Program-made: the position numbers and the translations under genes
Assembly (NCBI RefSeq): GCF_009768975.1
Contig: NZ_CP035733.1
Span: 3,268,001 to 3,332,000 of the forward strand
Source of the DNA: Sphingorhabdus lacus
GTDB lineage: Bacteria > Pseudomonadota > Alphaproteobacteria > Sphingomonadales > Sphingomonadaceae
DNA length: 64,000 nucleotides
Direction: 5' to 3'
In this document: piece after piece, positions 43,876 through 53,967 of the stretch
How the letters are laid out: each line of letters opens with the position of its first letter
Position numbering within the stretch: position 1 is the stretch's first letter
The notes under the pieces: generated by a model
What the model saw: only the letters and a program-made list of their open reading frames with translations
Told to the model about the DNA's origin: nothing
The model's database searches: none

Positions 43876-45141
43876 CTACCAGCGCGTTTCGAAACGGTTG
43901 CGCAAGTAAATAGCGAGGGCGTTCATCCCCAGCAGGAATATCAGAAGCACGATGATCGCGGCACTGGTTTTTTCGACAAAGCCCTGGTTCACTTCATCCG
44001 ACCAGAGATAGATCTGCACCGGTAATGCGGTGGCCGCGTCGGTGAAACCTTGCGGTGCCGAGGGAATGAAGGCGCGCATACCGATCATCAGCAACGGTGC
44101 GGTTTCACCCAGCGCACGTGCCATGCCGATAATCGTGCCGGTCAAAATGCCGGGCAGGGCGAGCGGCAGCACATGGTGGAACACCACCTGTACTGGCGAT
44201 GCACCAATGCCGAGCGCAGCTTCGCGGATGGAGGGTGGAACGGATTTGACGGCATTGCGGCCGGCAATCACGATGACCGGCATCGTCATCAGCGCAAGGG
44301 TTAAACCGCCCACCAGAGCCGACGAACGCGGCATCCCGAACATCGTCAGGAATACCGCAAGGCCGAGCAGGCCGAAGATGATCGAGGGAACAGCCGCAAG
44401 GTTGTTGATCGACACTTCGATCATGTCGGTCAGCTTGTTCTTCGGCGCATATTCTTCGAGATAGAGCGCCGCGAACACGCCAATGGGGAAAGCGAGCAAC
44501 AGGGTAATCGCCATCGTCATCAGCGACCCCTTGAATGCTGCCCAGATACCTACCGCAGACGGGTCGGTCGCATCGGCTCCGGTCAGGAATGTCCAGTTGA
44601 ACCCGCTGCGCAGCGCATCCTTCTGCTCCAGAGACGCGACGGTCTTTTCCGCAGCAGCCTCACCTGCGCGTTTGTAGGCGACATCGAGGCGGGAATCGGC
44701 GGGCAACCAGAGTGTCTGCTTTGCCGTTACCAATTGGGGGTTGTCAGCCAGTTTCTGGCGCACATTGGCGGCGGCGGCCGAGGTCAAAAGTTCGCTGCCC
44801 TGATCGCCATATTGCTGGCTGACGGCCAGATCGACAATGCCGGGAATATCCATCGAGTTGAGCGTCGTGTCTGCATTGGGCCCGGTAATGGATGCGGCGG
44901 TCGCGCCCGAAGTCAGGGCCGGGAAATCAAATTCGACGGCAATCTCCGTCCGCTGGAAACCGCGCAGGCCCTGGCCCAACATGGTGAACAGCAAGAAAGC
45001 AAGGAACAGTGTCGACAAGGCAACCGCAAAAAAGCCCATCGCCTTGAACCGGCGTTCGGCAGCATAGCGCTTCGCAATGCGTTTCTGCATCACGACGCCG
45101 TTCCAGTCGGTGGGGGTGGGGTCGATGGTGGCGTTATTCAT
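43876..45141 (-). CDS. pstA: phosphate ABC transporter permease PstA
   Basis: The 421-residue permease has an N-terminal helix followed by a large periplasmic part (about 45-190) of the DUF3333 type, then the permease core with about five helices. The EAA-type loop is NAVKSVPPSIREAALGIGASPVQVVFHHVLPLALPG, where the ATPase contacts. The start ATG 45141 overlaps the pstC stop by 8 nt, so upstream in-frame codons are not used. Confidence 0.95.
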   Translation of the reverse strand: MNNATIDPTPTDWNGVVMQKRIAKRYAAERRFKAMGFFAVALSTLFLAFLLFTMLGQGLRGFQRTEIAVEFDFPALTSGATAASITGPNADTTLNSMDIPGIVDLAVSQQYGDQGSELLTSAAAANVRQKLADNPQLVTAKQTLWLPADSRLDVAYKRAGEAAAEKTVASLEQKDALRSGFNWTFLTGADATDPSAVGIWAAFKGSLMTMAITLLLAFPIGVFAALYLEEYAPKNKLTDMIEVSINNLAAVPSIIFGLLGLAVFLTMFGMPRSSALVGGLTLALMTMPVIVIAGRNAVKSVPPSIREAALGIGASPVQVVFHHVLPLALPGILTGTIIGMARALGETAPLLMIGMRAFIPSAPQGFTDAATALPVQIYLWSDEVNQGFVEKTSAAIIVLLIFLLGMNALAIYLRNRFETRW

Positions 45142-46522
45142 ATGCTTCACGATAGCGTTTGACCACGCGCAGAGCGACATAGTTGAGGAAGAAGGTGGTG
45201 ACGAACAGCGCCAGACCCAGCGCGAATGCGGCCAGGGTGTGCGGGCTGCCGAAATCCTGGTCGCCGGTCAGCAGGGCGACGATCTGCACGGTGACCGTGG
45301 TAATCGTGTCGAACGGATTGGCGGTCAGATTGGCGGTGTAGCCTGCGGCCATCACCACGATCATGGTTTCGCCAATCGCACGGCTGACCGCAAGCAGGAC
45401 GCCGCCGACCACACCGGGCAGCGCAGCGGGAAGAAGGACTTGCTTGATCGTCTCGCTCTTGGTTGCGCCCATGGCGAGGCTGCCGTCGCGCATTGCATTG
45501 GGCACGGCAGCGATGCTGTCGTCAGACATGGACGAGACGAGTGGAATGATCATCACACCCATGACGATCCCGGCGGCCAGCGCATTGTCCGATGCGGCGT
45601 TGCTGACGCCCAGCATGACGGCGAAGTCACGGATCGCAGGGGCGACGGTGAGTGCGGCGAAATAGCCATAGACCACGGTTGGCACACCGGCGAGGATTTC
45701 GAGGATCGGCTTCATCCATTTGCGCACATTGGTCGAGGCATATTGGGTGAGGAAAATCGCGCTCATCAACCCAAGCGGGATAGCAACAAGCATCGCGATA
45801 ATCGCGCCGATGAAGATGGTGCCCCAGAAGAGCGGAATGGCGCCATAGCCATTATTCGCGCCGGGGGTGACGACGCTCTTTGGGTTCCAGTCGGTACCGA
45901 ACAGGAATTCAAAAGGCGAAACCATCGAGAAAAACTGGTAAGATTCAAAGATCAGCGACGCAAAGATACCAAGCGTTGTGATGATGGCGAGCAAGGATGC
46001 GAACAGCAAACCGAGCATGACCAGCCGCTCGACCTTGTTACGGGCGCGGAAGTCGGGCTTCAGGCGGGTGAACGCAAATGCACCACCTGCGAACAGCAGC
46101 ACCAGCGTACCGGCCATGCCGATCCAGCTATAGTAAGAGAGCGCGTCCTTATAGAGCGGCGCCAGCTTTTCGCTCTGCGCCTGAAATGCAGTGGTCTGCA
46201 GCCCCTGCGCGATGGCGCGGGCTTCGGACAGAATAGCGGCTCTGGAAAATCCGTCTTGCGGCAGGTCGGACGCGACGGGCGCGGACAGGACCATATTGGT
46301 CACCAGCGCGGGCGAAACCGATTGCCAGATGAACATGAAAAGCACGGCGGGGACGACGGCGCAGACCGCAACGAACCAGCCATGATAGGAGGGCAGGCTG
46401 TTGACCTGACCACGCGGGCCACCCTTTGCGGCGCGCACGAAAGTCGCGGCGCGTGCGCGTCCGACGATCCACGCGACCAACCCGAGGCCAAGGACAAGGA
46501 AGAGCAACGCCGTTCCAGTCAT
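45134..46522 (-). CDS. pstC: phosphate ABC transporter permease PstC
   Basis: The 462-residue permease has an enlarged N-terminal segment with two extra helices and a periplasmic loop, as in many alphaproteobacterial PstC. The core follows with the EAA loop PNAMRDGSLAMGATKSETIKQVLLPAALPG. ATG 46522 begins a membrane helix (TALLFLVLGLGLVAWIVG). The first downstream helix bundle contains SAIFLTQYAST. It is preceded by a strong hairpin separating it from pstS. Confidence 0.95.
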   Translation of the reverse strand: MTGTALLFLVLGLGLVAWIVGRARAATFVRAAKGGPRGQVNSLPSYHGWFVAVCAVVPAVLFMFIWQSVSPALVTNMVLSAPVASDLPQDGFSRAAILSEARAIAQGLQTTAFQAQSEKLAPLYKDALSYYSWIGMAGTLVLLFAGGAFAFTRLKPDFRARNKVERLVMLGLLFASLLAIITTLGIFASLIFESYQFFSMVSPFEFLFGTDWNPKSVVTPGANNGYGAIPLFWGTIFIGAIIAMLVAIPLGLMSAIFLTQYASTNVRKWMKPILEILAGVPTVVYGYFAALTVAPAIRDFAVMLGVSNAASDNALAAGIVMGVMIIPLVSSMSDDSIAAVPNAMRDGSLAMGATKSETIKQVLLPAALPGVVGGVLLAVSRAIGETMIVVMAAGYTANLTANPFDTITTVTVQIVALLTGDQDFGSPHTLAAFALGLALFVTTFFLNYVALRVVKRYREAYE

Positions 46523-46587
46523 ATACCTAACCTTGCCCCCTTCGGCCAAAAGGCCGGAAAATTGAGAAATTACGCACCAAAGACACT

Positions 46588-46621
46588 GGGCATGGATCGA
46601 ATAGAGATTCGATCCATGCCC
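46588..46621 (-). promoter_or_regulatory. perfect 15-bp hairpin between pstS and pstC
   Basis: GGGCATGGATCGAAT (46588-46602) and its reverse complement (46607-46621) surround a 4-nt loop. No T-run follows on either side. It lies in the 123-bp gap after pstS, where such hairpins commonly protect the binding-protein mRNA and raise its level over the permease genes. Confidence 0.82.
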
Positions 46622-46645
46622 ATAGACGCGAGGAATGTTGCAGTT

Positions 46646-47698
46646 TTATTTCAAATCTGCGCCGTCCATGGCATTTAGGCCGTTGGCAGCTTCCATAGCC
46701 TTTTTATAATCGGCATCGGTCGACGCAATCATGCCCAATTTCGTCAGATAACCGCCAACAGCGCCACCCTTCAGAAACTCGAGAATAAATTCCTTGATGC
46801 CCGGAATCTTGTCGATGTGGGCCTTCTTCACGTAGATGAACATCTTGCGTGCGCCGGGATAGCTTCCGTCCGAGATGGTGGCGATGGTTGGGTTGACGCC
46901 GTCCATCGTGATGCCGTGCACCTTGGCTGCGTTTTCTTCCATATAGCTATAGCCGAAAATGCCGACCATATTGGGGTTGGCGTCGAGCTTCTGAACGATC
47001 AGATTGTCGTTCTCGCCCTGCTCCTTGAACGCGCCATCGGTGCGGATTTCGGTGCAGACTGCTTTATACTTGTCTTCGTCCGTGTCCTTCAGCGCCTTCG
47101 TGGCGGCGTCGGTTTTGCAGCCGGCTTCCATGATCAGCTCATGGAAAGAATCGCGGGTACCCGAAGTTGTTGGCGGACCAAAAACCGAAATAGGCAGCTT
47201 GGGAAGCGCAGGATTGACGTCCGACCACAGCTTTGCGGTCTGCGGCTTGCCAAAGGGGTTCGCAGCCAATGCCTTGTATACATCGGCGGTCGACAGAGCG
47301 AATTTTTCACCCTTGTTCGATTGCGCAAGCGCGAGGCCGTCGATACCCACCTGGATTTCGATGATGTCCTTCACGCCATTCTTCTGGCAATTTTCAAACT
47401 CGCTCTTTTTGATGCGGCGCGATGCATTGGTGATGTCGGGTGTTTCCGCGCCGACGCCCTTGCAGAACTGCTCCATACCACCGCCGGTGCCGGTCGATTC
47501 GAGAACCGGCGACTTGCGCGAGCTGTCGGCCTTGGCAAAAGCTTCAGCAGCAGCCTTGGCGAAGGGGAAAACGGTCGAGGAGCCGACAATGCGGATTTCC
47601 TGACGTGATCCGCCCGCTGCACCGCCGGTGCTGGCCTGGTCATTACATGCCGTAAGCGCAAGCGCGCTAATGGCGATAAGCGAGATTTTCTTCATCAT
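46646..47698 (-). CDS. pstS: phosphate-binding protein PstS (lipoprotein)
   Basis: PstS captures phosphate in the periplasm for the Pst transporter. The 350-residue precursor carries a lipoprotein signal (LALTAC, Cys18), so it is membrane-anchored, not free. Phosphate-binding elements include SSTVFPFAKAAAEAF, TGTGGGMEQFC and TSGTRDSFHELIM. Two ATG codons at the start (47698 and 47695) are possible; the second has better Shine-Dalgarno spacing. A Pho box lies 81-107 bp upstream. Confidence 0.95.
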   Translation of the reverse strand: MMKKISLIAISALALTACNDQASTGGAAGGSRQEIRIVGSSTVFPFAKAAAEAFAKADSSRKSPVLESTGTGGGMEQFCKGVGAETPDITNASRRIKKSEFENCQKNGVKDIIEIQVGIDGLALAQSNKGEKFALSTADVYKALAANPFGKPQTAKLWSDVNPALPKLPISVFGPPTTSGTRDSFHELIMEAGCKTDAATKALKDTDEDKYKAVCTEIRTDGAFKEQGENDNLIVQKLDANPNMVGIFGYSYMEENAAKVHGITMDGVNPTIATISDGSYPGARKMFIYVKKAHIDKIPGIKEFILEFLKGGAVGGYLTKLGMIASTDADYKKAMEAANGLNAMDGADLK

Positions 47699-47772
47699 TT
47701 ACCTGTTTCCCTCAATTGGAATTATCATGGCGAACCCATGCCCGGTCGCGCAGATAGCTGCCCTAGATGGCC

Positions 47773-47805
47773 GATAAATGACTCTTGCGTGACACTTATA
47801 TGACA
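47773..47805 (-). promoter_or_regulatory. Pho box and promoter of pstS, inside the end of phoR
   Basis: On the minus strand TGTCA (47805-47801), TGTCA (47794-47790) and AGTCA (47783-47779) are spaced exactly 11 bp apart and are followed directly by the -10-like TTTATC (47778-47773). The first unit and part of the next lie around the phoR stop codon at 47796-47798. The arrangement mirrors the porin promoter at 40070-40113. Confidence 0.85.
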
Positions 47806-49055
47806 GTGTCGGGGGCAACGGGTAACAATACCGACACGCTGGTCCCTGTTCCTACGGTACTGCGGATTTCCAGATGCCCGCGGTGGCGGTCCACAATATG
47901 TTTTACCAGACTTAATCCGAGGCCGGTTCCCCCGACCGAGCGGCTGCGACCCGAATCAACGCGGTAGAATCGTTCAGTCAGCCGCGGCAAATGTTCCGGT
48001 GCGATTCCGTCGCCCTGGTCGACGACGCTGAAAGCCAGCATCGCACCCGAACGCGACTGCGCCAGCGAAACCGCGATGGGCGTGCCCGGGCGGCCATATT
48101 TCATAGCGTTGGTGATGATATTGCTCGCGAGCTGCCGCAATTGTCCCGCATCGCCCATCACTTGCGAAGCTTCCATGGTGATGTCGAGGACAATGTCGCC
48201 GCCCCGCTCTTTCTGGCTGGCGCGGACATGATCGACGGTTTCCATCACAATATGCGCAAAGTCGACGGGCGTTTGCGGCGGATCATATTTTTCCGCCTCG
48301 ATGCGCGACAGCGACATGAGGTCGCGGACGAGCGCCTGCATCCGGTCGGTTTCTTTCGCCATTATGCCCAGGAAGCGCCCCCGTGTTTCGGGGTCGTCGC
48401 CGGCATCGGGATCATCCAGTGTTTCAATAAAGCCTTTGACGGCGGCCAGCGGGGTCAGCAATTCATGGCTTGCATTGGCGACAAAATCGACGCGCATCTT
48501 CTCGGCAGCCTGCGCTCCGCTGCGGTCGGCGAGGTGCACCATTTTCTGGCCTGGTCCGATCGACTGGATCCGCATATCCCACATCTGGCTTTGCTGGCCG
48601 ATGCCGGTCAGGCGAATCGGATGCCCGGTATGCTGGGCGTCGGGGTCGGTCAGGCGCTCGATCGCACCGGCATGGCGGAATGCGATGCGCACATTTTGGC
48701 CGACAATATTGATACCCAATAACTGGCGCGCAAACTGGTTCGCTGCGGTGACCCGGGAATTGTCGACAATCAGGATCGCGTCGTTGGATGCATCGATGAA
48801 GGACTGCAATTGGGGATGGCTGGTGATTGCGCCGGGATCGATAAAGGACTGAGCCGGCATGTGCGCGGAAGGCTCATTACCGGGGTCATGGGGATCGGCG
48901 GCAACGAAGAGCGCGATCAGCATGGATATAAGTGTCACAAGAATGCGTTCGACTTCGCCATGCAACTGTCCGGCGATCACTGCCCCTATGACGGCCAGCG
49001 CAACGGCAAAAAGGACTCGGGGTGACAACCAGCTATTCACACTTTCCCCATCCAC
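47796..49055 (-). CDS. phoR: phosphate regulon sensor histidine kinase PhoR
   Basis: PhoR phosphorylates PhoB when phosphate is low. The 419-residue protein has two N-terminal membrane helices (about 13-30 and 37-53) with almost no periplasmic loop, a PAS-like domain (about 80-175), the HisKA helix with His197 (NASHELLTP) and a HATPase_c domain (N-box MKYG region; VVDQGDGIAPEHLPRLTERFYR; GTGLGLSLVKHIV). It precedes pstS on the same strand, and its 3' end carries the pstS Pho box. Confidence 0.94.
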   Translation of the reverse strand: MDGESVNSWLSPRVLFAVALAVIGAVIAGQLHGEVERILVTLISMLIALFVAADPHDPGNEPSAHMPAQSFIDPGAITSHPQLQSFIDASNDAILIVDNSRVTAANQFARQLLGINIVGQNVRIAFRHAGAIERLTDPDAQHTGHPIRLTGIGQQSQMWDMRIQSIGPGQKMVHLADRSGAQAAEKMRVDFVANASHELLTPLAAVKGFIETLDDPDAGDDPETRGRFLGIMAKETDRMQALVRDLMSLSRIEAEKYDPPQTPVDFAHIVMETVDHVRASQKERGGDIVLDITMEASQVMGDAGQLRQLASNIITNAMKYGRPGTPIAVSLAQSRSGAMLAFSVVDQGDGIAPEHLPRLTERFYRVDSGRSRSVGGTGLGLSLVKHIVDRHRGHLEIRSTVGTGTSVSVLLPVAPDTVI

Positions 49056-49190: not shown

Positions 49191-49592
49191 ATGGACGATG
49201 ACACAAAAAGCCCCAATCCGCTGAATAGCCCGACGAGCCGTCGTCGTGCGCTGATGCTCGGTGCGGCCACTGCGTCGGCCATTGTATCGGTGCGGCCTGC
49301 TTTGGCGCAATCCGCTGCATCCGTCATGAACTGCGAAATTCCGGTGCCCGGACCGCATGGTACGGGCATGAATATCGACAGTTATGGCAAGTTGGTTCCG
49401 CGCGATACCCCGGGTTCATTCCCTGCGACCGGACAGAAATTCACCGGTGAACAGGTGAAAGCGGCCCTGCGTGGACGCAGTCTGCCCGGCACAAGCTATG
49501 ACCAGAGCCAGGCCTATGTAAATTATATCCGCCGCCTGCAAAGCGGCCAGAGCGGCTTCACCTGCTACGCCAGCCTGCAGATGTCGCGCTAA
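49191..49592 (+). CDS. small Tat-exported protein, first gene of the HPr-rel-A-like cluster
   Basis: The 133-residue precursor has a twin-arginine signal (SRRRALMLGAAT, cleavage after Ala39). The mature chain of about 94 residues has two Cys (Cys48, MNCEIP; Cys125, FTCYAS), a Gly/Pro-rich middle and a Ser/Tyr-rich C-terminal part (GTSYDQSQAYVNYIRRLQSGQSG). It matches no family I recognise. ATG 49191 has no clear ribosome binding site. It lies 39 bp before a PqqD-like gene and a kinase, so it is a candidate substrate of that system. This is an inference from position only. Confidence 0.7.
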   Translation: MDDDTKSPNPLNSPTSRRRALMLGAATASAIVSVRPALAQSAASVMNCEIPVPGPHGTGMNIDSYGKLVPRDTPGSFPATGQKFTGEQVKAALRGRSLPGTSYDQSQAYVNYIRRLQSGQSGFTCYASLQMSR

Positions 49593-49631
49593 ACATTGAA
49601 TTTTAACGCTGGGGCTTTACCCCATGCGTCC

Positions 49632-49925
49632 ATGACAGCGTCGCAAAGTACAAAATATAAAGCGGAACCGGCGGACCAGATTTTGGTTACGCCGCTGGAT
49701 TCGCTGACATTGGTGTATCAGCGCCGGTCGGGGATCACCCATATCGTGGCCGAACCCGCCCCCGAAATACTCGCCGCCATGGGTGCGGACGCGTTGACCG
49801 CCGACGAGGTTGCGCAGCGGTTGGCGGCGCAATTTGATTTTGACAGCGCGCAAGCGGCGGACATCATAGCCGCACGATTGAACGAGCTGGCCGATCTCGG
49901 GCTGGTCGAGCGCTGCTATGCATGA
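49632..49925 (+). CDS. PqqD-like protein (HPr-rel-A system PqqD relative)
   Basis: The 97-residue protein fits the PqqD/RRE fold: beta strands DQILVTPLDSLTLVYQRRSG and ITHIVAEPAPEILAAMG followed by helices TADEVAQRLAAQFDFD and AADIIAARLNELADLGLVER. PqqD domains bind leader peptides and hand them to modifying enzymes. ATG 49632 begins after a weak region and is preferred to TTG 49596. It overlaps the kinase gene by 8 nt. Its family has been named, but no function is known to me. Confidence 0.82.
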   Translation: MTASQSTKYKAEPADQILVTPLDSLTLVYQRRSGITHIVAEPAPEILAAMGADALTADEVAQRLAAQFDFDSAQAADIIAARLNELADLGLVERCYA

Positions 49926-50772
49926 ATTCCGGGTTCAGGTAGGGCCAGCCGCCTTTCGCATCGGTTCGCAGTGGAAGCGACCGTTGGATCAACTGGCGGA
50001 ATTGTACCGCGATTATCCGGTGCCGCAAATACCCGACTATTCGGTGCGGCTGGAATCGGTCAGCCTGTTGCGCCGTTTTATCCGCCCATCGGTGGCGATC
50101 AACGGGGACTATATGTTGCCGGATGCGGCGCCTTTGCCTTTGGAGCAAGGCTTGCTGGCGGCCGAAATGGCGATGAACCTGCAAATGGCGCTCGGCTGGC
50201 GGCGGCACGTGTTACTGCATGCCAGCGCCGTCGAAAAGGATGGAAAGGCCCTTATCATGACGGGCCAATCGGGGTCGGGCAAATCGACTTTGGCTGCCAT
50301 GCTGGGCCATAGGGGCTGGCGCTTCATGGGTGATGAATTTGTACTGGTCGATCTGGACAGCGGCGATGCGGTGCCATTCCCCCGGCTCATCAGCCTGAAA
50401 AACGAAGCCATTGGCGCGATGCTGGCCACCGCGCTCGATGGTCGTTTTGGCCCCTTGATGCCGTCCACGCCCAAGGGGGACATCCGGCATCTGGTTCCGC
50501 CTTCCGATGCGATCGACCATATGGCGCGTCCGGCCCGGCCTGCGCTCTTGCTATTCCCCAGCTTCGGATTTGACGCCGCTGTGCGTGAGGTCGGGCCGAG
50601 CGAGGTGTTCATGCGCTTGACGCAAGCCTCGACCAATTATGTCGCGCTCGGTGAAAAGGGCTTTTCTACGCTGACCCGCTTTGTCCAAACGGTTCCCGCC
50701 CGCGCGATTGATTATCGCGACGGGATCGAGGCCGAAGCGTTGGTGAACCAGCTATGGGCGGAATGCGCATGA
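49918..50772 (+). CDS. HprK-related kinase (HPr-rel-A system)
   Basis: The 284-residue protein has the HprK-like P-loop TGQSGSGKST (115-124), the preceding His101 (LLHASAV) that aligns with the conserved His of HPr kinase, and GDEFVLVD (Asp139). In true HprK the P-loop is GDSGxGKSE; here the Asp is replaced by Gln117 and the final Glu by Thr124, so chemistry may differ. The substrate is unknown. It overlaps the PqqD-like gene by 8 nt and the nucleotidyltransferase by ATGA. Confidence 0.85.
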   Translation: MHEFRVQVGPAAFRIGSQWKRPLDQLAELYRDYPVPQIPDYSVRLESVSLLRRFIRPSVAINGDYMLPDAAPLPLEQGLLAAEMAMNLQMALGWRRHVLLHASAVEKDGKALIMTGQSGSGKSTLAAMLGHRGWRFMGDEFVLVDLDSGDAVPFPRLISLKNEAIGAMLATALDGRFGPLMPSTPKGDIRHLVPPSDAIDHMARPARPALLLFPSFGFDAAVREVGPSEVFMRLTQASTNYVALGEKGFSTLTRFVQTVPARAIDYRDGIEAEALVNQLWAECA

Positions 50773-51782
50773 CCCATAACGGCATGCTTCTGGTCGATGC
50801 GCTGCGCAATCCTGCGGGGACAGCGCGTTTGGACGCGGCTGGATGGACTGCGCTGCTGACCATAGCACGGGTCGAACAACTGCTCGGCACCTTGGCGCGC
50901 AAGCTATCGGGTTTGCCTGTGCCGGACGCGGTGGCGCACATATTGGAAGAGGCCCGGATCAACGCCGAATACCAACGCCGCTCTGCCTTGTGGGAGGCCG
51001 ACTGCGCGCGGCGGGCACTGGCGGACTATGCCGGCAAGGTCGTGCTGATGAAGGGAACGGCCTATGTGGCGGCTGGTCTCAAGGCAGGCGAGGGGCGGCA
51101 TATCGGGGATCTCGATATCATGGTCGCACAGGCCGAATTGCCGCAGGTCGAGGCTGCGTTGCTAAACGCCGGGTGGGAATGGGTGAAAGAAGACGCCTAT
51201 GATGACGCCTATTATCGCGACCATATGCATGAGCTGCCCCCGCTGATCCACAAGGAGCGGGACCGCATGATCGATGTGCACCACACGATCCTGCCCCTGA
51301 CGGCGCGACCCCGGCCCGATGCGGAGGTGATGCTGGCCGATGGGGATGCGCTGGCAAATGGCCTTTATGTCCTGAGCCCGACCGACATGTTGATTCACAG
51401 CGCCGCGCATCTGTTTGCCGATGGCGAGCTGGACGGTGGATTGCGGAACCTGTGGGATATTCATTGCCTGATCGACGAGCGGGCCGATGATGCATTTTGG
51501 CCCGCACTTGCAAGTCGTGCGGCACATCACCAGCTGCTTGCCCCGGTGGAACGTGCCGTGCGCCTGGCCCATCAACTATATGGGACAGACATCCCAAGCG
51601 GATGGCGGCGCGGGCATTGGCCGGACACATATTATATCCGCCGTCTGACCGCACGCGACCATTGGGGGCGGGGCACGCATAAACTCACAAGGCTGCTCTT
51701 TTACATCCGGTCGCACTGGCTGCGCATGCCGCCGTTGATGCTGGCGCGGCATTTGTGGACGAAATGGCGGAAGTCAGCCTAG
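50769..51782 (+). CDS. nucleotidyltransferase family protein (NTP_transf_5 type)
   Basis: The 337-residue protein has the nucleotidyltransferase core KGTAYV...GRHIGDLDIMV, with Asp114 and Asp116 as likely metal ligands, and a third acidic site Asp169 (IDVHHTILP). Such enzymes transfer nucleotides to a protein, peptide or small molecule. The start is ATG 50769, coupled to the kinase stop by ATGA; an in-frame ATG at 50754 lies in the kinase. The C-terminal half is helical and basic. It ends 9 bp into the convergent gph gene. Confidence 0.85.
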   Translation: MTHNGMLLVDALRNPAGTARLDAAGWTALLTIARVEQLLGTLARKLSGLPVPDAVAHILEEARINAEYQRRSALWEADCARRALADYAGKVVLMKGTAYVAAGLKAGEGRHIGDLDIMVAQAELPQVEAALLNAGWEWVKEDAYDDAYYRDHMHELPPLIHKERDRMIDVHHTILPLTARPRPDAEVMLADGDALANGLYVLSPTDMLIHSAAHLFADGELDGGLRNLWDIHCLIDERADDAFWPALASRAAHHQLLAPVERAVRLAHQLYGTDIPSGWRRGHWPDTYYIRRLTARDHWGRGTHKLTRLLFYIRSHWLRMPPLMLARHLWTKWRKSA

Positions 51783-52454
51783 ATTGCGCAGGGCAGGGAG
51801 AAGCTCGTCAAAATGGTCGATAATTGCATCGGCGCCCATTTCCTCAACCGGACCATGTAAAAAGCCGAAGCTGACGGCGATGCTGGGCACATTGGCGTTC
51901 TTCGCCGCCATGACGTCATAAATGGAATCCCCGATATAGGCCGCCCGCCCGCCAGCGCCCAAGGCTTGGCCGCGTTTCACCATTTCGAATATGGGCGCGC
52001 CTGAAGGTTTGGCATTTTCCTTACCCAAAGTGTCCGCACCCAAAATGCAGACCATACGGTGGGCAAGGTTCAGGTCGGTGAGCAGCTTGACCGCAAGGCT
52101 TTCAAACTTGTTGGTGACTACCGCATAACGCACGCCCATGGCATCGAGTTGGTCCAACAGGTCGAGCGCGCCGTCGAACGGGCGGCTGTGGACCGAGACA
52201 TTGGCTTCATAATAGCTAAGCATCTGGCGATAGAGCGGACGGAAATCGTCGCCCGGTATGCCGCCCGTTGCCTCCAGCCCCTGTTGCAGCATCAGCTTTG
52301 CACCGCCGCCAATATGCTGCTTCACCGTTTCGGTGGAGAGCAGCGGTCGCCCCACGCTGTCCAGCACATGGTTGACCGCCGCAGTCAGGTCGCCGCTGGT
52401 GTCGACGAGCGTACCGTCGAGATCGAATCCGATAATGTCGAAAGGAATACTCAA
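51774..52454 (-). CDS. gph: phosphoglycolate phosphatase (HAD family)
   Basis: The 226-residue HAD phosphatase has the nucleophile motif D11-L-D13-G-T, the Ser/Thr motif VVTNK (about 115) and the Lys/Asp motifs KPSGAPIFEM and YIGDSIYDVMAAKNA. It would remove phosphate from 2-phosphoglycolate. It is convergent with the nucleotidyltransferase gene and divergent from glmU. Confidence 0.9.
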   Translation of the reverse strand: MSIPFDIIGFDLDGTLVDTSGDLTAAVNHVLDSVGRPLLSTETVKQHIGGGAKLMLQQGLEATGGIPGDDFRPLYRQMLSYYEANVSVHSRPFDGALDLLDQLDAMGVRYAVVTNKFESLAVKLLTDLNLAHRMVCILGADTLGKENAKPSGAPIFEMVKRGQALGAGGRAAYIGDSIYDVMAAKNANVPSIAVSFGFLHGPVEEMGADAIIDHFDELLPALRNLG

Positions 52455-52470
52455 ACCTAATCTCCTTAAT

Positions 52471-52550
52471 CCGTTCCTGTCGAGCGTAGTCGAGACACCG
52501 CGAGAGCGCGCCTAACTTATTGGTATCTCGACTTCGCTCGATACGAACGG
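52471..52550. repeat. imperfect inverted repeat (dispersed sphingomonad repeat)
   Basis: The 29-bp arms at 52471-52499 and 52522-52550 are reverse complements at 25 of 29 positions. The core TCGAGCG-AGTCGAGA belongs to a common intergenic repeat type of sphingomonads. It lies between the divergent gph and glmU genes. Confidence 0.85.
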
Positions 52551-52620
52551 GATTGAATATGTTGAGGTAAATGGAGCGTTGTTCTGGAAACCGCAACAAT
52601 TTGCTGGCATGAGGCGGCGC

Positions 52621-53967
52621 ATGACACAGATCGCCGCCATCATTCTCGCCGCGGGCAAAGGCACCCGCATGAAATCCGACCTGCACAAGGTGCTACACCC
52701 CATCGCGGGCCGCCCTATGCTGATGCACCTGATGGACGCGGTCGACGCGTTGAATCCGGCCAAGAAGGTCGTAGTCGTCGGCAGCGGCAAGGAACAGTTG
52801 GAAGCTGCGCTGGCAGGATCGGCAGAACTGGCCGTGCAGGAACCGCAACATGGTACCGGTCATGCGGTCCAGCAGGCCGAAGCGGCATTGGCGGGTTTTG
52901 AGGGCGACGTCCTGATTCTCTACGGCGACGTGCCTTTTGTCCCCACATCCACAATGCAGATGATGATTGACCGGCTGAACGCCGACGACGATCCCGCCGT
53001 CGTCGTTCTGGGCTTTGAACCGGAAGATACGCAAGCCTATGGCCGCATCGTCACGCAGAATGACCGGATTGAATGGATGGTCGAGCACAAGGACGCGACC
53101 GAAGCGCAGCGGGCGACAAAGCTGTGCAACAGCGGCCTGATGGCGGTGAAGGCAAAGGATCTCTTCCCTCTTTTGGCGCGGGTCACCAACGAGAATGCGG
53201 CGGGCGAGTATTATCTGGTCGACATCGTCAACATCGCGACGCAGGACGGACGCCATTGCTATGTCGTCAAGACCGACCCCTATGACGTAACCGGCATCAA
53301 TAGCCGCGGTGAACTCGCCGCGATGGAGGGCGAGTGGCAGGCACGGCGCCGTGTGCAGGCCATGGTGGACGGCGCGAGCCTGATTGCGCCCGACACGGTC
53401 TGGTTTTCCTGGGACACCAAGCTGGGCCGCGATGTGCTGATTGAGCCAAACGTCTTTTTTGGCCCCGGCGTGACGGTCGCCGACAATGTAAAAATCCGCG
53501 CCAACTGCCATATTGAGGGCGCGACCATCGGTTCGGGTTGCGAAGTCGGCCCCTTTGCGCGGTTGCGCCCCGGCACGGTGCTCGAAGAAAAGGCCAAGAT
53601 CGGGAATTTCGTCGAGACGAAAAAGGCGCATCTGGGCAAAGGCGCGAAAGCCAATCATCTCACCTATCTGGGCGACGCCACCATCGGCGCGGGTGCGAAT
53701 ATCGGGGCAGGGACGATTACCTGCAATTATGACGGCTATTTCAAATATCAGACCGTGATCGGCGAGGGCGCGTTCATTGGCAGCAACAGCGCCCTGATTG
53801 CGCCTGTGAAAATCGGCCGCGACGCGATTGTTGCCGCCGGCAGTGCGGTCAGCCGTGACGTCGCCGATGGCGACCTGCGCATGGTACGGGCCGAACAGCT
53901 GGTGAAACCCGGCTGGGCCGACCGGTTCCACGATACGATGCGGAAAAAGAAGGCCGAAAAGAAGTGA
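52621..53967 (+). CDS. glmU: bifunctional GlcN-1-P acetyltransferase / GlcNAc-1-P uridylyltransferase
   Basis: GlmU makes UDP-GlcNAc, the precursor of peptidoglycan and lipid A. The 448-residue protein has an N-terminal uridylyltransferase domain (ILAAGKGTRMKS, 8-19; QHGTGHA; YGDVPFV) and a C-terminal left-handed beta-helix acetyltransferase domain (about 250-448; NFVETKKAHLGKGAKANHLTYLGDA). ATG 52621 is conserved; an upstream ATG is in frame but unrelated. It overlaps the next gene by 4 nt. The partner glmS lies at 56173. Confidence 0.96.
   Translation: MTQIAAIILAAGKGTRMKSDLHKVLHPIAGRPMLMHLMDAVDALNPAKKVVVVGSGKEQLEAALAGSAELAVQEPQHGTGHAVQQAEAALAGFEGDVLILYGDVPFVPTSTMQMMIDRLNADDDPAVVVLGFEPEDTQAYGRIVTQNDRIEWMVEHKDATEAQRATKLCNSGLMAVKAKDLFPLLARVTNENAAGEYYLVDIVNIATQDGRHCYVVKTDPYDVTGINSRGELAAMEGEWQARRRVQAMVDGASLIAPDTVWFSWDTKLGRDVLIEPNVFFGPGVTVADNVKIRANCHIEGATIGSGCEVGPFARLRPGTVLEEKAKIGNFVETKKAHLGKGAKANHLTYLGDATIGAGANIGAGTITCNYDGYFKYQTVIGEGAFIGSNSALIAPVKIGRDAIVAAGSAVSRDVADGDLRMVRAEQLVKPGWADRFHDTMRKKKAEKK

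Follow-up and report, generated by a model that had tools for sequence, protein, structure and literature searches.

The window, a stretch of 64,000 nucleotides of Sphingorhabdus lacus DNA, carries four tightly packed open reading frames on the plus strand at positions 49191-51782. The first gene, S (49191-49592), encodes a Tat-leader protein of 133 amino acids, the proposed substrate, which gave nothing above chance against NCBIfam and Pfam and belongs to no family there. It is followed by D (49632-49925), a PqqD-like RiPP recognition element (RRE) of the HPr-rel-A system with 97 amino acids, by K (49918-50772), an HprK-related kinase A of 284 amino acids, and by N (50769-51782), a nucleotidyltransferase of 337 amino acids. 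The spacings are +39 between S and D, -8 between D and K and -4 (ATGA) between K and N, in agreement with the earlier note; an upstream TTG at 49596 would offer an alternative start for D and a product of 109 amino acids. D scored 60.9 bits with TIGR04353 (cut-off 35) and K, which D adjoins with the 8-base overlap, scored 218 bits with TIGR04352 (cut-off 200), so that the HPr-rel-A naming proposed from the letters alone holds at the curated NCBIfam cut-offs for both. N is a member of PF14907 (176.6 bits against a cut-off of 31.2). The Pfam PqqD model missed D in the search of its own genome (20.4 bits, Pfam cut-off 23.4). In the public record of a relative the HPr-rel-A names are in use and the S gene is just a 'hypothetical protein'; in the databases and literature searched S is undescribed, and no described substrate of D or K turned up there either.

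Catalytic and recognition features of D, K and N

The catalytic residues of K and N are intact. N carries the pattern K95 G96 ... R110 xxx D114 x D116 ... D169, H210, in which K95, G96, D114, D116 and D169 are invariant among 117 sequences, and KG...D-x-D is presumably the motif of the PF14907 NTP_transf_5 nucleotidyltransferases. In K the residues H101, GxGK122, D139, E140, K161, K186 and N240 are invariant. Lasso kinases have conserved His-Lys-Asp-Asp residues according to PMC9266682; the invariant H101, K122 and D139 of K may be the counterparts of the first three, and the next residue is the invariant Glu140, not Asp. The sequence search for solved relatives of K returned one irrelevant match (E 0.0095). 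A natural K-N fusion is found at one locus (L164).

The earlier note had taken D for a leader-binding type of protein, and the structural model of D is consistent with this. Its top Foldseek matches are the RRE-leader complexes 5v1v (TbiB1-leader), 5v1u and 6jx3 (FusB1-leader), along with PqqD (5sxy), at TM (target) values of 0.59-0.68 and a best E of 3.9e-3, none reaching E<=0.001. D is thus predicted to have an RRE fold, the match being modest. The interface in the S-D model is uninterpretable at its low confidence (pTM 0.54, pLDDT 55-65 in the leader and 58 in the C-terminal tail).

The S protein, its leader and its C-terminal motif

S has a twin-arginine leader with a hydrophobic region, SRRRALMLGAATASAIVSVRPALAQ, and its Tat motif reads SRRRALMLG. 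The signal region extends approximately over 49239..49313 on the plus strand (residues about 17-41), with the twin arginines at one end and the AQ-S cleavage area, where the site was placed by eye, at the other. The leader motif makes S a predicted Tat substrate, and this motif was found in 98/100 profile-found S sequences versus 88/1769 neighbouring ORFs. R17 and R18 are conserved in at least 90% of 74 divergent S sequences; beyond the twin arginines the column statistics are loose, some rows being mis-picked ORFs. The description of S as a small Tat-leader protein with two cysteines was borne out (Cys48 and Cys125). On the other hand, the 'Ser/Tyr-rich tail' pointed out earlier is not the conserved feature; that place belongs to a C-terminal CxxS motif.

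In the window's S this motif is GFTCYASL, with Cys125 and Ser128 in protein numbering, and C48, G122, F123, T124, C125, A127 and S128 are invariant in the 31 rows of the S alignment A1. The general form for this type-1 family is G-[FIV]-[ST]-C-x-x-S. CxxS occurs within the last 45 amino acids of 123 of the 135 profile-found S sequences, against a mean of 13.6 and a maximum of 24 in 500 shuffles. The 12 exceptions comprise eight that retain Ser-[Leu/Ile] and lack the Cys, two with the motif further in and two with type-2 mature parts (described below). Since the serine persists in these eight even when the cysteine is lost, Ser128 is the predicted modification site, and the Cys-Ser motif could also be structural, as part of a disulfide. 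No usable PDB match was obtained for the folds of mature S or of type-2 S.

The presence of S closely follows that of the enzymes. Among 86 Sphingomonadales loci with K, and on the same strand as K, S was found upstream in 77, D in 84 and N in 86, so the proposed conservation of the four-gene order was upheld and the small protein is not absent from most clusters, the outcome that the earlier note had named as damaging to its idea. In the window's own family, S occurs in 40/40 genomes with K and in 0/96 without it (Fisher p 2e-35); the 40 include G045, with a weak S match (3.9e-9) located beside a D, and the absences are less sure than the presences because a limited number of first-look candidates was scored per genome, 20 in many of them. 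Three matches at E<=1e-20 that fell under the K cut-off (G235, G285, G401) were excluded. An adjacent S is missing from D-K-N in 7/86 Sphingomonadales loci, and in the seven genomes with D-K-N alone (all of one genus) S is retained unlinked in every case. The near-obligate co-occurrence therefore includes unlinked S. In G045, S-D is found at one place and K-N at another; D thus stays with S when the enzymes are separated from it.

Distant relatives and genomic surroundings

Relatives of the operon were found across many soil and water bacteria. Four of 72,556 plasmid records matched at E<=1e-20, and viral contigs gave none with a single-protein query sensitive to close relatives only. Outside Sphingomonadales a Tat-leader ORF, either a relative of S or a member of a second family, lies upstream in 34/37 loci, and K was seen without a recognised D or S in the other 3/37. 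In 80 named loci, S was found by profile in 42, a Tat ORF upstream in 32 and a Tat ORF downstream in 1. The second (type-2) family resembles type-1 S in the leader only: in the profile-profile comparison of A1 (type-1) with A6 (type-2), the region from the leader to the cleavage area alone aligned (50 columns, probability 92.7, E 4e-7). This likeness could reflect the common Tat function alone. The comparison of A2 with A6 was set aside, as A2 contains some type-2 rows and is not independent, and the MAFFT alignment A4 was discarded because its D-only rows were misplaced. As type-2 S was selected by its Tat leader, the screen is circular when used to count such leaders, and the independent evidence is the common mature sequence, with C-x-x-SG and SPGYW. 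An automatic C-(1-3)-SG test was satisfied by 25/45 type-2 sequences, a few of the 45 being mis-picked ORFs (e.g. L184 and L282). This family lacks the C-terminal CxxS and its site must therefore be elsewhere; in type-2 S of Thiobacillus or Massilia relatives the candidates are conserved serines that follow the leader.

Some relatives are accompanied by glycosyltransferase, sulfotransferase or exopolysaccharide genes, and in Sphingobium a glycosyltransferase gene is inserted between S and D. XrtA/PEP-CTERM exopolysaccharide genes lie within 6.5 kb in 20/46, 9/37 and 12/49 loci of relatives outside Sphingomonadaceae, and in 20/46, 20/37 and 14/49 when glycosyltransferases are included. Neither this exopolysaccharide context nor the second S family had been foreseen in the earlier note. 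Exosortase was counted, from two tables, in 36/51 genomes with K versus 61/346 without, an association that was rejected as confounded by lineage (13/13 with K and 7/8 without among the 21 sampled genomes of the window's family). The operon is also adjoined by phoR-pst. Control by phosphate starvation was rejected, as the best match to a Pho-box consensus upstream of S, in 31 upstream regions of the same family, was no better than in shuffled sequence.

Proposed modification pathway and its alternatives

The operon fairly probably encodes a system that modifies a protein in connection with its export through Tat. D would bind the Tat signal peptide of S and retain S in the cytoplasm, K would phosphorylate the conserved serine near the C-terminus (Ser128), and N would then extend this phosphate by a nucleotide or a sugar-phosphate. 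From these sequences, the tag that S is predicted to receive before export most likely includes a phosphate, with either a sugar or a nucleotide as a probable further part. The modified S would then be released by D, exported through Tat and freed of its signal peptide by the ordinary signal peptidase; mature S would probably act in the periplasm or at the cell surface, where it may perhaps carry or touch exopolysaccharide.

The earlier note's appeal to HprK-like kinases of peptide systems finds a precedent in both lasso and linear polyphosphorylated peptides (LPP), in which they phosphorylate a precursor serine. For LPP of Bacillota, Popov et al. 2026 (PMC13381572) describe a kinase, LppK, acting on a precursor with a dedicated RRE: a single Ser receives 1-4 phosphates, phosphorylation is lost in the S3A variant, and deletion of N had no effect in a heterologous host. 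The system of the window shares with LPP the discrete RRE, HprK-like kinase, NTP transferase and separate precursor gene, the lack of a macrolactam cyclase, the frequent polysaccharide context and precursors with a conserved N-terminus and a variable rest. It differs in coming from Pseudomonadota, with substrates of about 120-300 amino acids, and in that the candidate Ser of type 1 lies close to the C-terminus, whereas the LPP site is Ser3 of the core. Moreover, the LPP leader motif is YxxP, whereas residues 1-47 of the window's S contain neither Tyr nor Trp and include a Tat signal peptide instead. LPP also has the SpI-like peptidase LppS and an MsbA-like exporter, and neither kind of gene was found in the four-gene operon or, by scanning representatives, in ten recurrent neighbour clusters. 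In the paeninodin/pseudomycoidin type of lasso system, PadeK and PsmK act on the C-terminal Ser and PsmN adds a hexose to the phospho-Ser (PMC9266682). These systems likewise combine the HprK-like kinase with a nucleotidyltransferase-like N and a discrete RRE (B1), whereas the operon here has no B2 peptidase or lasso cyclase and its substrate is much longer, with a Tat leader. LPP and paeninodin-type lasso tailoring are the closest known systems, neither being described as using Tat in the text available for them. In the proposed pathway D would also resemble the REMPs TorD and DmsD, as a dedicated chaperone on a Tat leader with maturation before export; it differs in having an RRE in place of the TorD fold typical of REMPs, and in covalent modification by partner enzymes, not cofactor insertion. 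The REMPs are Tat-leader chaperones whose specificity resides in the hydrophobic stretch of the leader (PMC3316669).

Other explanations fit part of these data. S may be a partner or effector, the enzymes modifying another molecule such as a polysaccharide precursor or lipid and the exported S working on the product; the exopolysaccharide genes often near outer relatives and the Sphingobium glycosyltransferase would suit this arrangement. We regard it as unlikely, as it offers no reason for the RRE to be there (the known RREs related to it attach to the leaders of precursors), D adjoins S away from K-N in G045, and the two S families keep one kind of leader with mature parts that show no similarity. 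It is about equally improbable that K phosphorylates only, giving a poly-phospho-Ser protein that carries neither nucleotide nor sugar, with N as a regulator or repair enzyme. The several phosphates placed by the LPP kinase agree with such a product, and the reaction of N is the weakest step of the proposed pathway because LppN did nothing in the heterologous test; against this stand the invariant catalytic motif of N, its presence in all 86 Sphingomonadales loci, the K-N fusion and the hexose transfer by PsmN.

That the enzymes tailor a short peptide, of the lasso kind or another, whose gene lies elsewhere, S being a bystander, is very unlikely, even though lasso tailoring genes have in common with the operon the Pfam family of N (lasso N proteins are presumably PF14907), the fold of D and a remote similarity to K. 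Lasso-forming enzymes are absent from the operon, as noted earlier, and the window's genome has no match to the B2 peptidase family PF13471 (E<=0.001), for which reason lasso tailoring was rejected there. Further, B2 occurs in 21/40 genomes of the window's family with K versus 57/96 without (p 0.57), and it is S that accompanies K throughout. We give hardly any credence to phosphorylation of HPr in carbon or nitrogen regulation, which the name of K suggests and its remote similarity to HprK (PF07475, 22.1 bits, below the Pfam cut-off) allows: K is tied to D, N and S, and no PTS genes were seen among those recurrent neighbours that were identified.

Returning to modification of S itself, a wider reading can be put forward tentatively, as a possibility that we hold rather doubtful. 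The operon may represent an undescribed class, widespread in Pseudomonadota, in which the RRE serves as a Tat-leader chaperone holding folded precursors, which fall into two or more families whose mature parts are unrelated, and the kinase and nucleotidyltransferase build a phosphodiester-linked sugar or nucleotide on one Ser. The product would be a Tat-exported, phosphoglycosylated surface protein tied to exopolysaccharide, its decoration extended in some lineages by an accessory glycosyltransferase or sulfotransferase.

D and K are already named in databases, and the co-occurrence of the exported S with the enzymes opens an unstudied modification system to direct testing. With a candidate substrate, residue and recognition element at hand, a single co-expression experiment would be decisive. 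If the proposal is true, RRE-guided modification would reach beyond small peptides to include Tat-exported proteins, and it would offer a way to approach the question of why polysaccharide genes adjoin phosphate-modifying RRE systems in different phyla.

Organisation and conservation of the operon

The four open reading frames on which the earlier note was built were confirmed in the window sequence with their positions and overlaps (49191-51782, + strand), and the observation of a four-gene operon is sound. They encode a Tat-leader protein (S), a PqqD-like RRE protein (D), an HprK-related kinase A (K) and a nucleotidyltransferase (N). In the NCBIfam and Pfam scans D, K and N matched TIGR04353, TIGR04352 and PF14907, respectively, each above cut-off, with D scoring under Pfam's own PqqD cut-off; no match beyond chance was found for S in either collection. 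Among 74 divergent S relatives, one gave a weak Pfam TAT_signal match, and the NCBIfam scan gave four hits, spread over three unrelated models. Genes for a phoR-type kinase and pstS- and pstC-like proteins lie upstream and divergent (45134-49055, - strand), and a phosphatase-like (gph-like) gene followed by a glmU-like gene lies downstream, convergent to the operon (51774-53967); these names rest on reading and on a comparison to a Sphingomonas parapaucimobilis record. On an 880-kb replicon of that species the operon is likewise placed between phoR-pst-like and gph/glmU-like genes, annotated in the order pst genes, ATP-binding protein, hypothetical protein, HPr-rel-A system PqqD family peptide chaperone, HprK-related kinase A, nucleotidyltransferase, hydrolase, glmU and glmS.

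Of 197 Sphingomonadales genomes, 84 have a TIGR04352 match above cut-off, and two near-full-length matches just below it brought the set to 86 K loci, in which D, N and S were found by iterated profile search. The gene order was found to be conserved, with S-D-K-N in 72/86 loci, N in all 86, D in 84 and S on the strand of K in 77. The remaining orders were S-S-D-K-N (3), S-D-K-K-N (1), S-D-S-K-N (1), D-K-N (7) and K-N (2, one of them, L079, truncated by the contig end), and further ORFs separate S from D in L035 and L106. Across 397 Pseudomonadota genomes K was above cut-off in 51, of which 36, with 37 loci, are outside Sphingomonadales. Profile search of these outer loci gave N in 32 and D in 25, and a Tat-leader ORF is upstream in 34 (20 with an S-profile match of E<=0.01, the other 14 picked out by reading); neither D nor S was recognised in the other three (L161, L162, L166). 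The best 80 loci of a named-genome scan, from Sphingomonas, Sphingobium, Sphingopyxis, Massilia, Duganella, Nitrosomonas, Thiobacillus, Thioalkalivibrio and other genera, include 78 with D and 79 with N. The profile detected S in 42 of them; in 32 a Tat ORF precedes D, or K if D is unrecognised, in one (L294) it lies downstream, and five, two of them at contig ends, lack S. The three locus sets overlap, and their counts are not additive. On plasmid pVa1 of Vibrio alfacsensis, K and N stand beside a Tat-leader protein of type-2 look (described below), whose annotation is hypothetical protein; between it and K about 290 bases carry no listed gene and could hold D.

Co-occurrence of S with the enzymes

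A profile of 31 S proteins resembling that of the window (type 1) was searched across the 197 Sphingomonadales genomes. Since at most about 20 first-look candidates were scored per genome, an absence of S is less certain than its presence. Of the 136 genomes in the window's own family, S was found in 40/40 with K and in 0/96 without it. Over the whole order the profile matched in 57 genomes, all among the 86 with K, and in none of the 111 lacking K; in the other 29 genomes with K the S proteins are more divergent, and in a few S was not found. The idea of the earlier note, which was staked on the association of the small protein with the enzymes, passes its own co-occurrence test strongly. Adjacency is the weaker evidence here, because common ancestry could explain it, and the retention of S after the operon has broken up is a stronger sign of a functional tie. 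All seven D-K-N-only genomes, which belong to one genus, keep S at another genomic place, and one genome carries S-D in one place and K-N in another. Four genomes of another family (L223-L226) have extra S copies on contigs other than that of D-K-N, each with the C-terminal CxxS motif; a single set of enzymes may thus act on more than one substrate. It is very probable that S belongs functionally to D-K-N, and it is likely to be their substrate.

Features of S, D and the enzymes

Type 1 S proteins combine a variable middle with the C-terminal motif G-[FIV]-[ST]-C-x-x-S-[LIF]. C-x-x-S falls within the last 45 residues in 123 of 135 distinct profile-found S proteins, against a mean of 13.6 and a maximum of 24 in 500 shuffles. 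Among the 12 exceptions, two (L102, L104) carry the motif further from the end, two (L263, L297, both among the 42 profile-found named loci, where at least two such cases occur) have type-2 mature parts, and eight, from Nitrosomonas and others, were seen by reading to keep Ser-[Leu/Ile] in a like setting with no Cys; as these eight retain Ser, it is the more constant residue of the motif. The predicted site of modification is Ser128 of the window's S, with slightly better than even chances. Long Asp-rich stretches (DDDDDD), possibly metal-binding, were observed between the two conserved ends of type-1 S in one family (L038, L042, L044, L070, L085, L086 and others).

Type 2 S proteins, from beta- and gammaproteobacteria, carry C-x-x-SG-x-x-SGN-x-S after the leader and then C-x-G-x-SPGYW; two members scanned singly matched no Pfam family (L289) and no NCBIfam family (L294). 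When 31 type-1 and 38 type-2 sequences were compared profile to profile, the leader alone aligned, over 50 columns that reach the cleavage area (probability 92.7, E 4e-7). The likeness of leaders in front of unrelated mature parts is an argument for the leader as the part that D would recognise, though a common Tat function could also have kept this likeness. By structure comparison, D is best matched by TbiB1 and FusB1, two lasso RREs in complex with their leaders, and by PqqD. In the S-D joint model D was good, with blocks of pLDDT 87-96, and residues 61-110 of mature S were well defined (88-95), the leader (55-65) and C-terminal tail of S (58) being poorly defined. His101, Gly121, Lys122, Asp139-Glu140, Lys161, Lys186 and Asn240 are invariant in 121/121 K sequences of at least 260 aa, as are Lys95-Gly96, Asp114-x-Asp116 and Asp169 in 117/117 N sequences of at least 280 aa; K and N are fused in one genome (L164).

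Neighbouring genes and relation to described tailoring systems

A glycosyltransferase-like ORF is inserted between S and D in three Sphingobium loci (L231, L233, L234) and L035, and those of L035 and L234 were typed as group-1/family-4 glycosyltransferases. K is followed in seven outer loci (L153, L159, L167, L168, L171-L173) by a member of a single ORF cluster, which in some of them separates K from N; the one scanned (L159) is a TPR-sulfotransferase. XrtA/PEP-CTERM exopolysaccharide clusters, each typed by one scanned representative (exosortase A, PrsT, FemAB, deacetylase, export, chain length), occur within 6.5 kb in 20/46 other Sphingomonadales, 9/37 outer and 12/49 other named loci, or in 20/46, 20/37 and 14/49 when the TIGR03087-type glycosyltransferase cluster is added. 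Such clusters are near the system in 0/40 and 0/31 Sphingomonadaceae loci, and a surface-polysaccharide link has no direct support in the window's own lineage. A cluster with an HtrA-like serine protease as its scanned member was also seen near the system in 20 loci (L177, L179, L183, L184, L264 and others), mostly outside Sphingomonadaceae.

'HPr-rel-A' and 'HprK-related kinase' found no mention in the literature searched, which includes few subscription papers, and no paper describing the system was recognised among the matches listed for HprK, PqqD, Tat, RiPP and exosortase. HPr, kinase, TIGR04353, Sphingo and twin-arginine are all absent from the main texts of two RRE surveys. According to PMC9266682, HprK-like kinases phosphorylate a C-terminal Ser in paeninodin-type clusters, and PsmN attaches a hexose to the phosphate of that Ser, though the review allows that a host enzyme may add the sugar. 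PMC13381572 describes linear polyphosphorylated peptides (LPP) of Bacillota, made with an RRE, an HprK-like kinase placing several phosphates onto one Ser, and an NTP transferase, the latter without effect in B. subtilis, and with no cyclase; LPP and paeninodin clusters are there often housed in polysaccharide loci. Owing to this placement and the neighbour counts, a link of the present system to surface polysaccharide is rated as a lead and not a result. Unlike LPP, the window's system has a Tat leader and no YxxP, its operon is without dedicated peptidase or exporter, and it differs in substrate size and phylum. The whole picture, leaving aside the nature of the group added by N, is considered moderately probable, and the system would work like LPP and paeninodin tailoring while being a member of neither.
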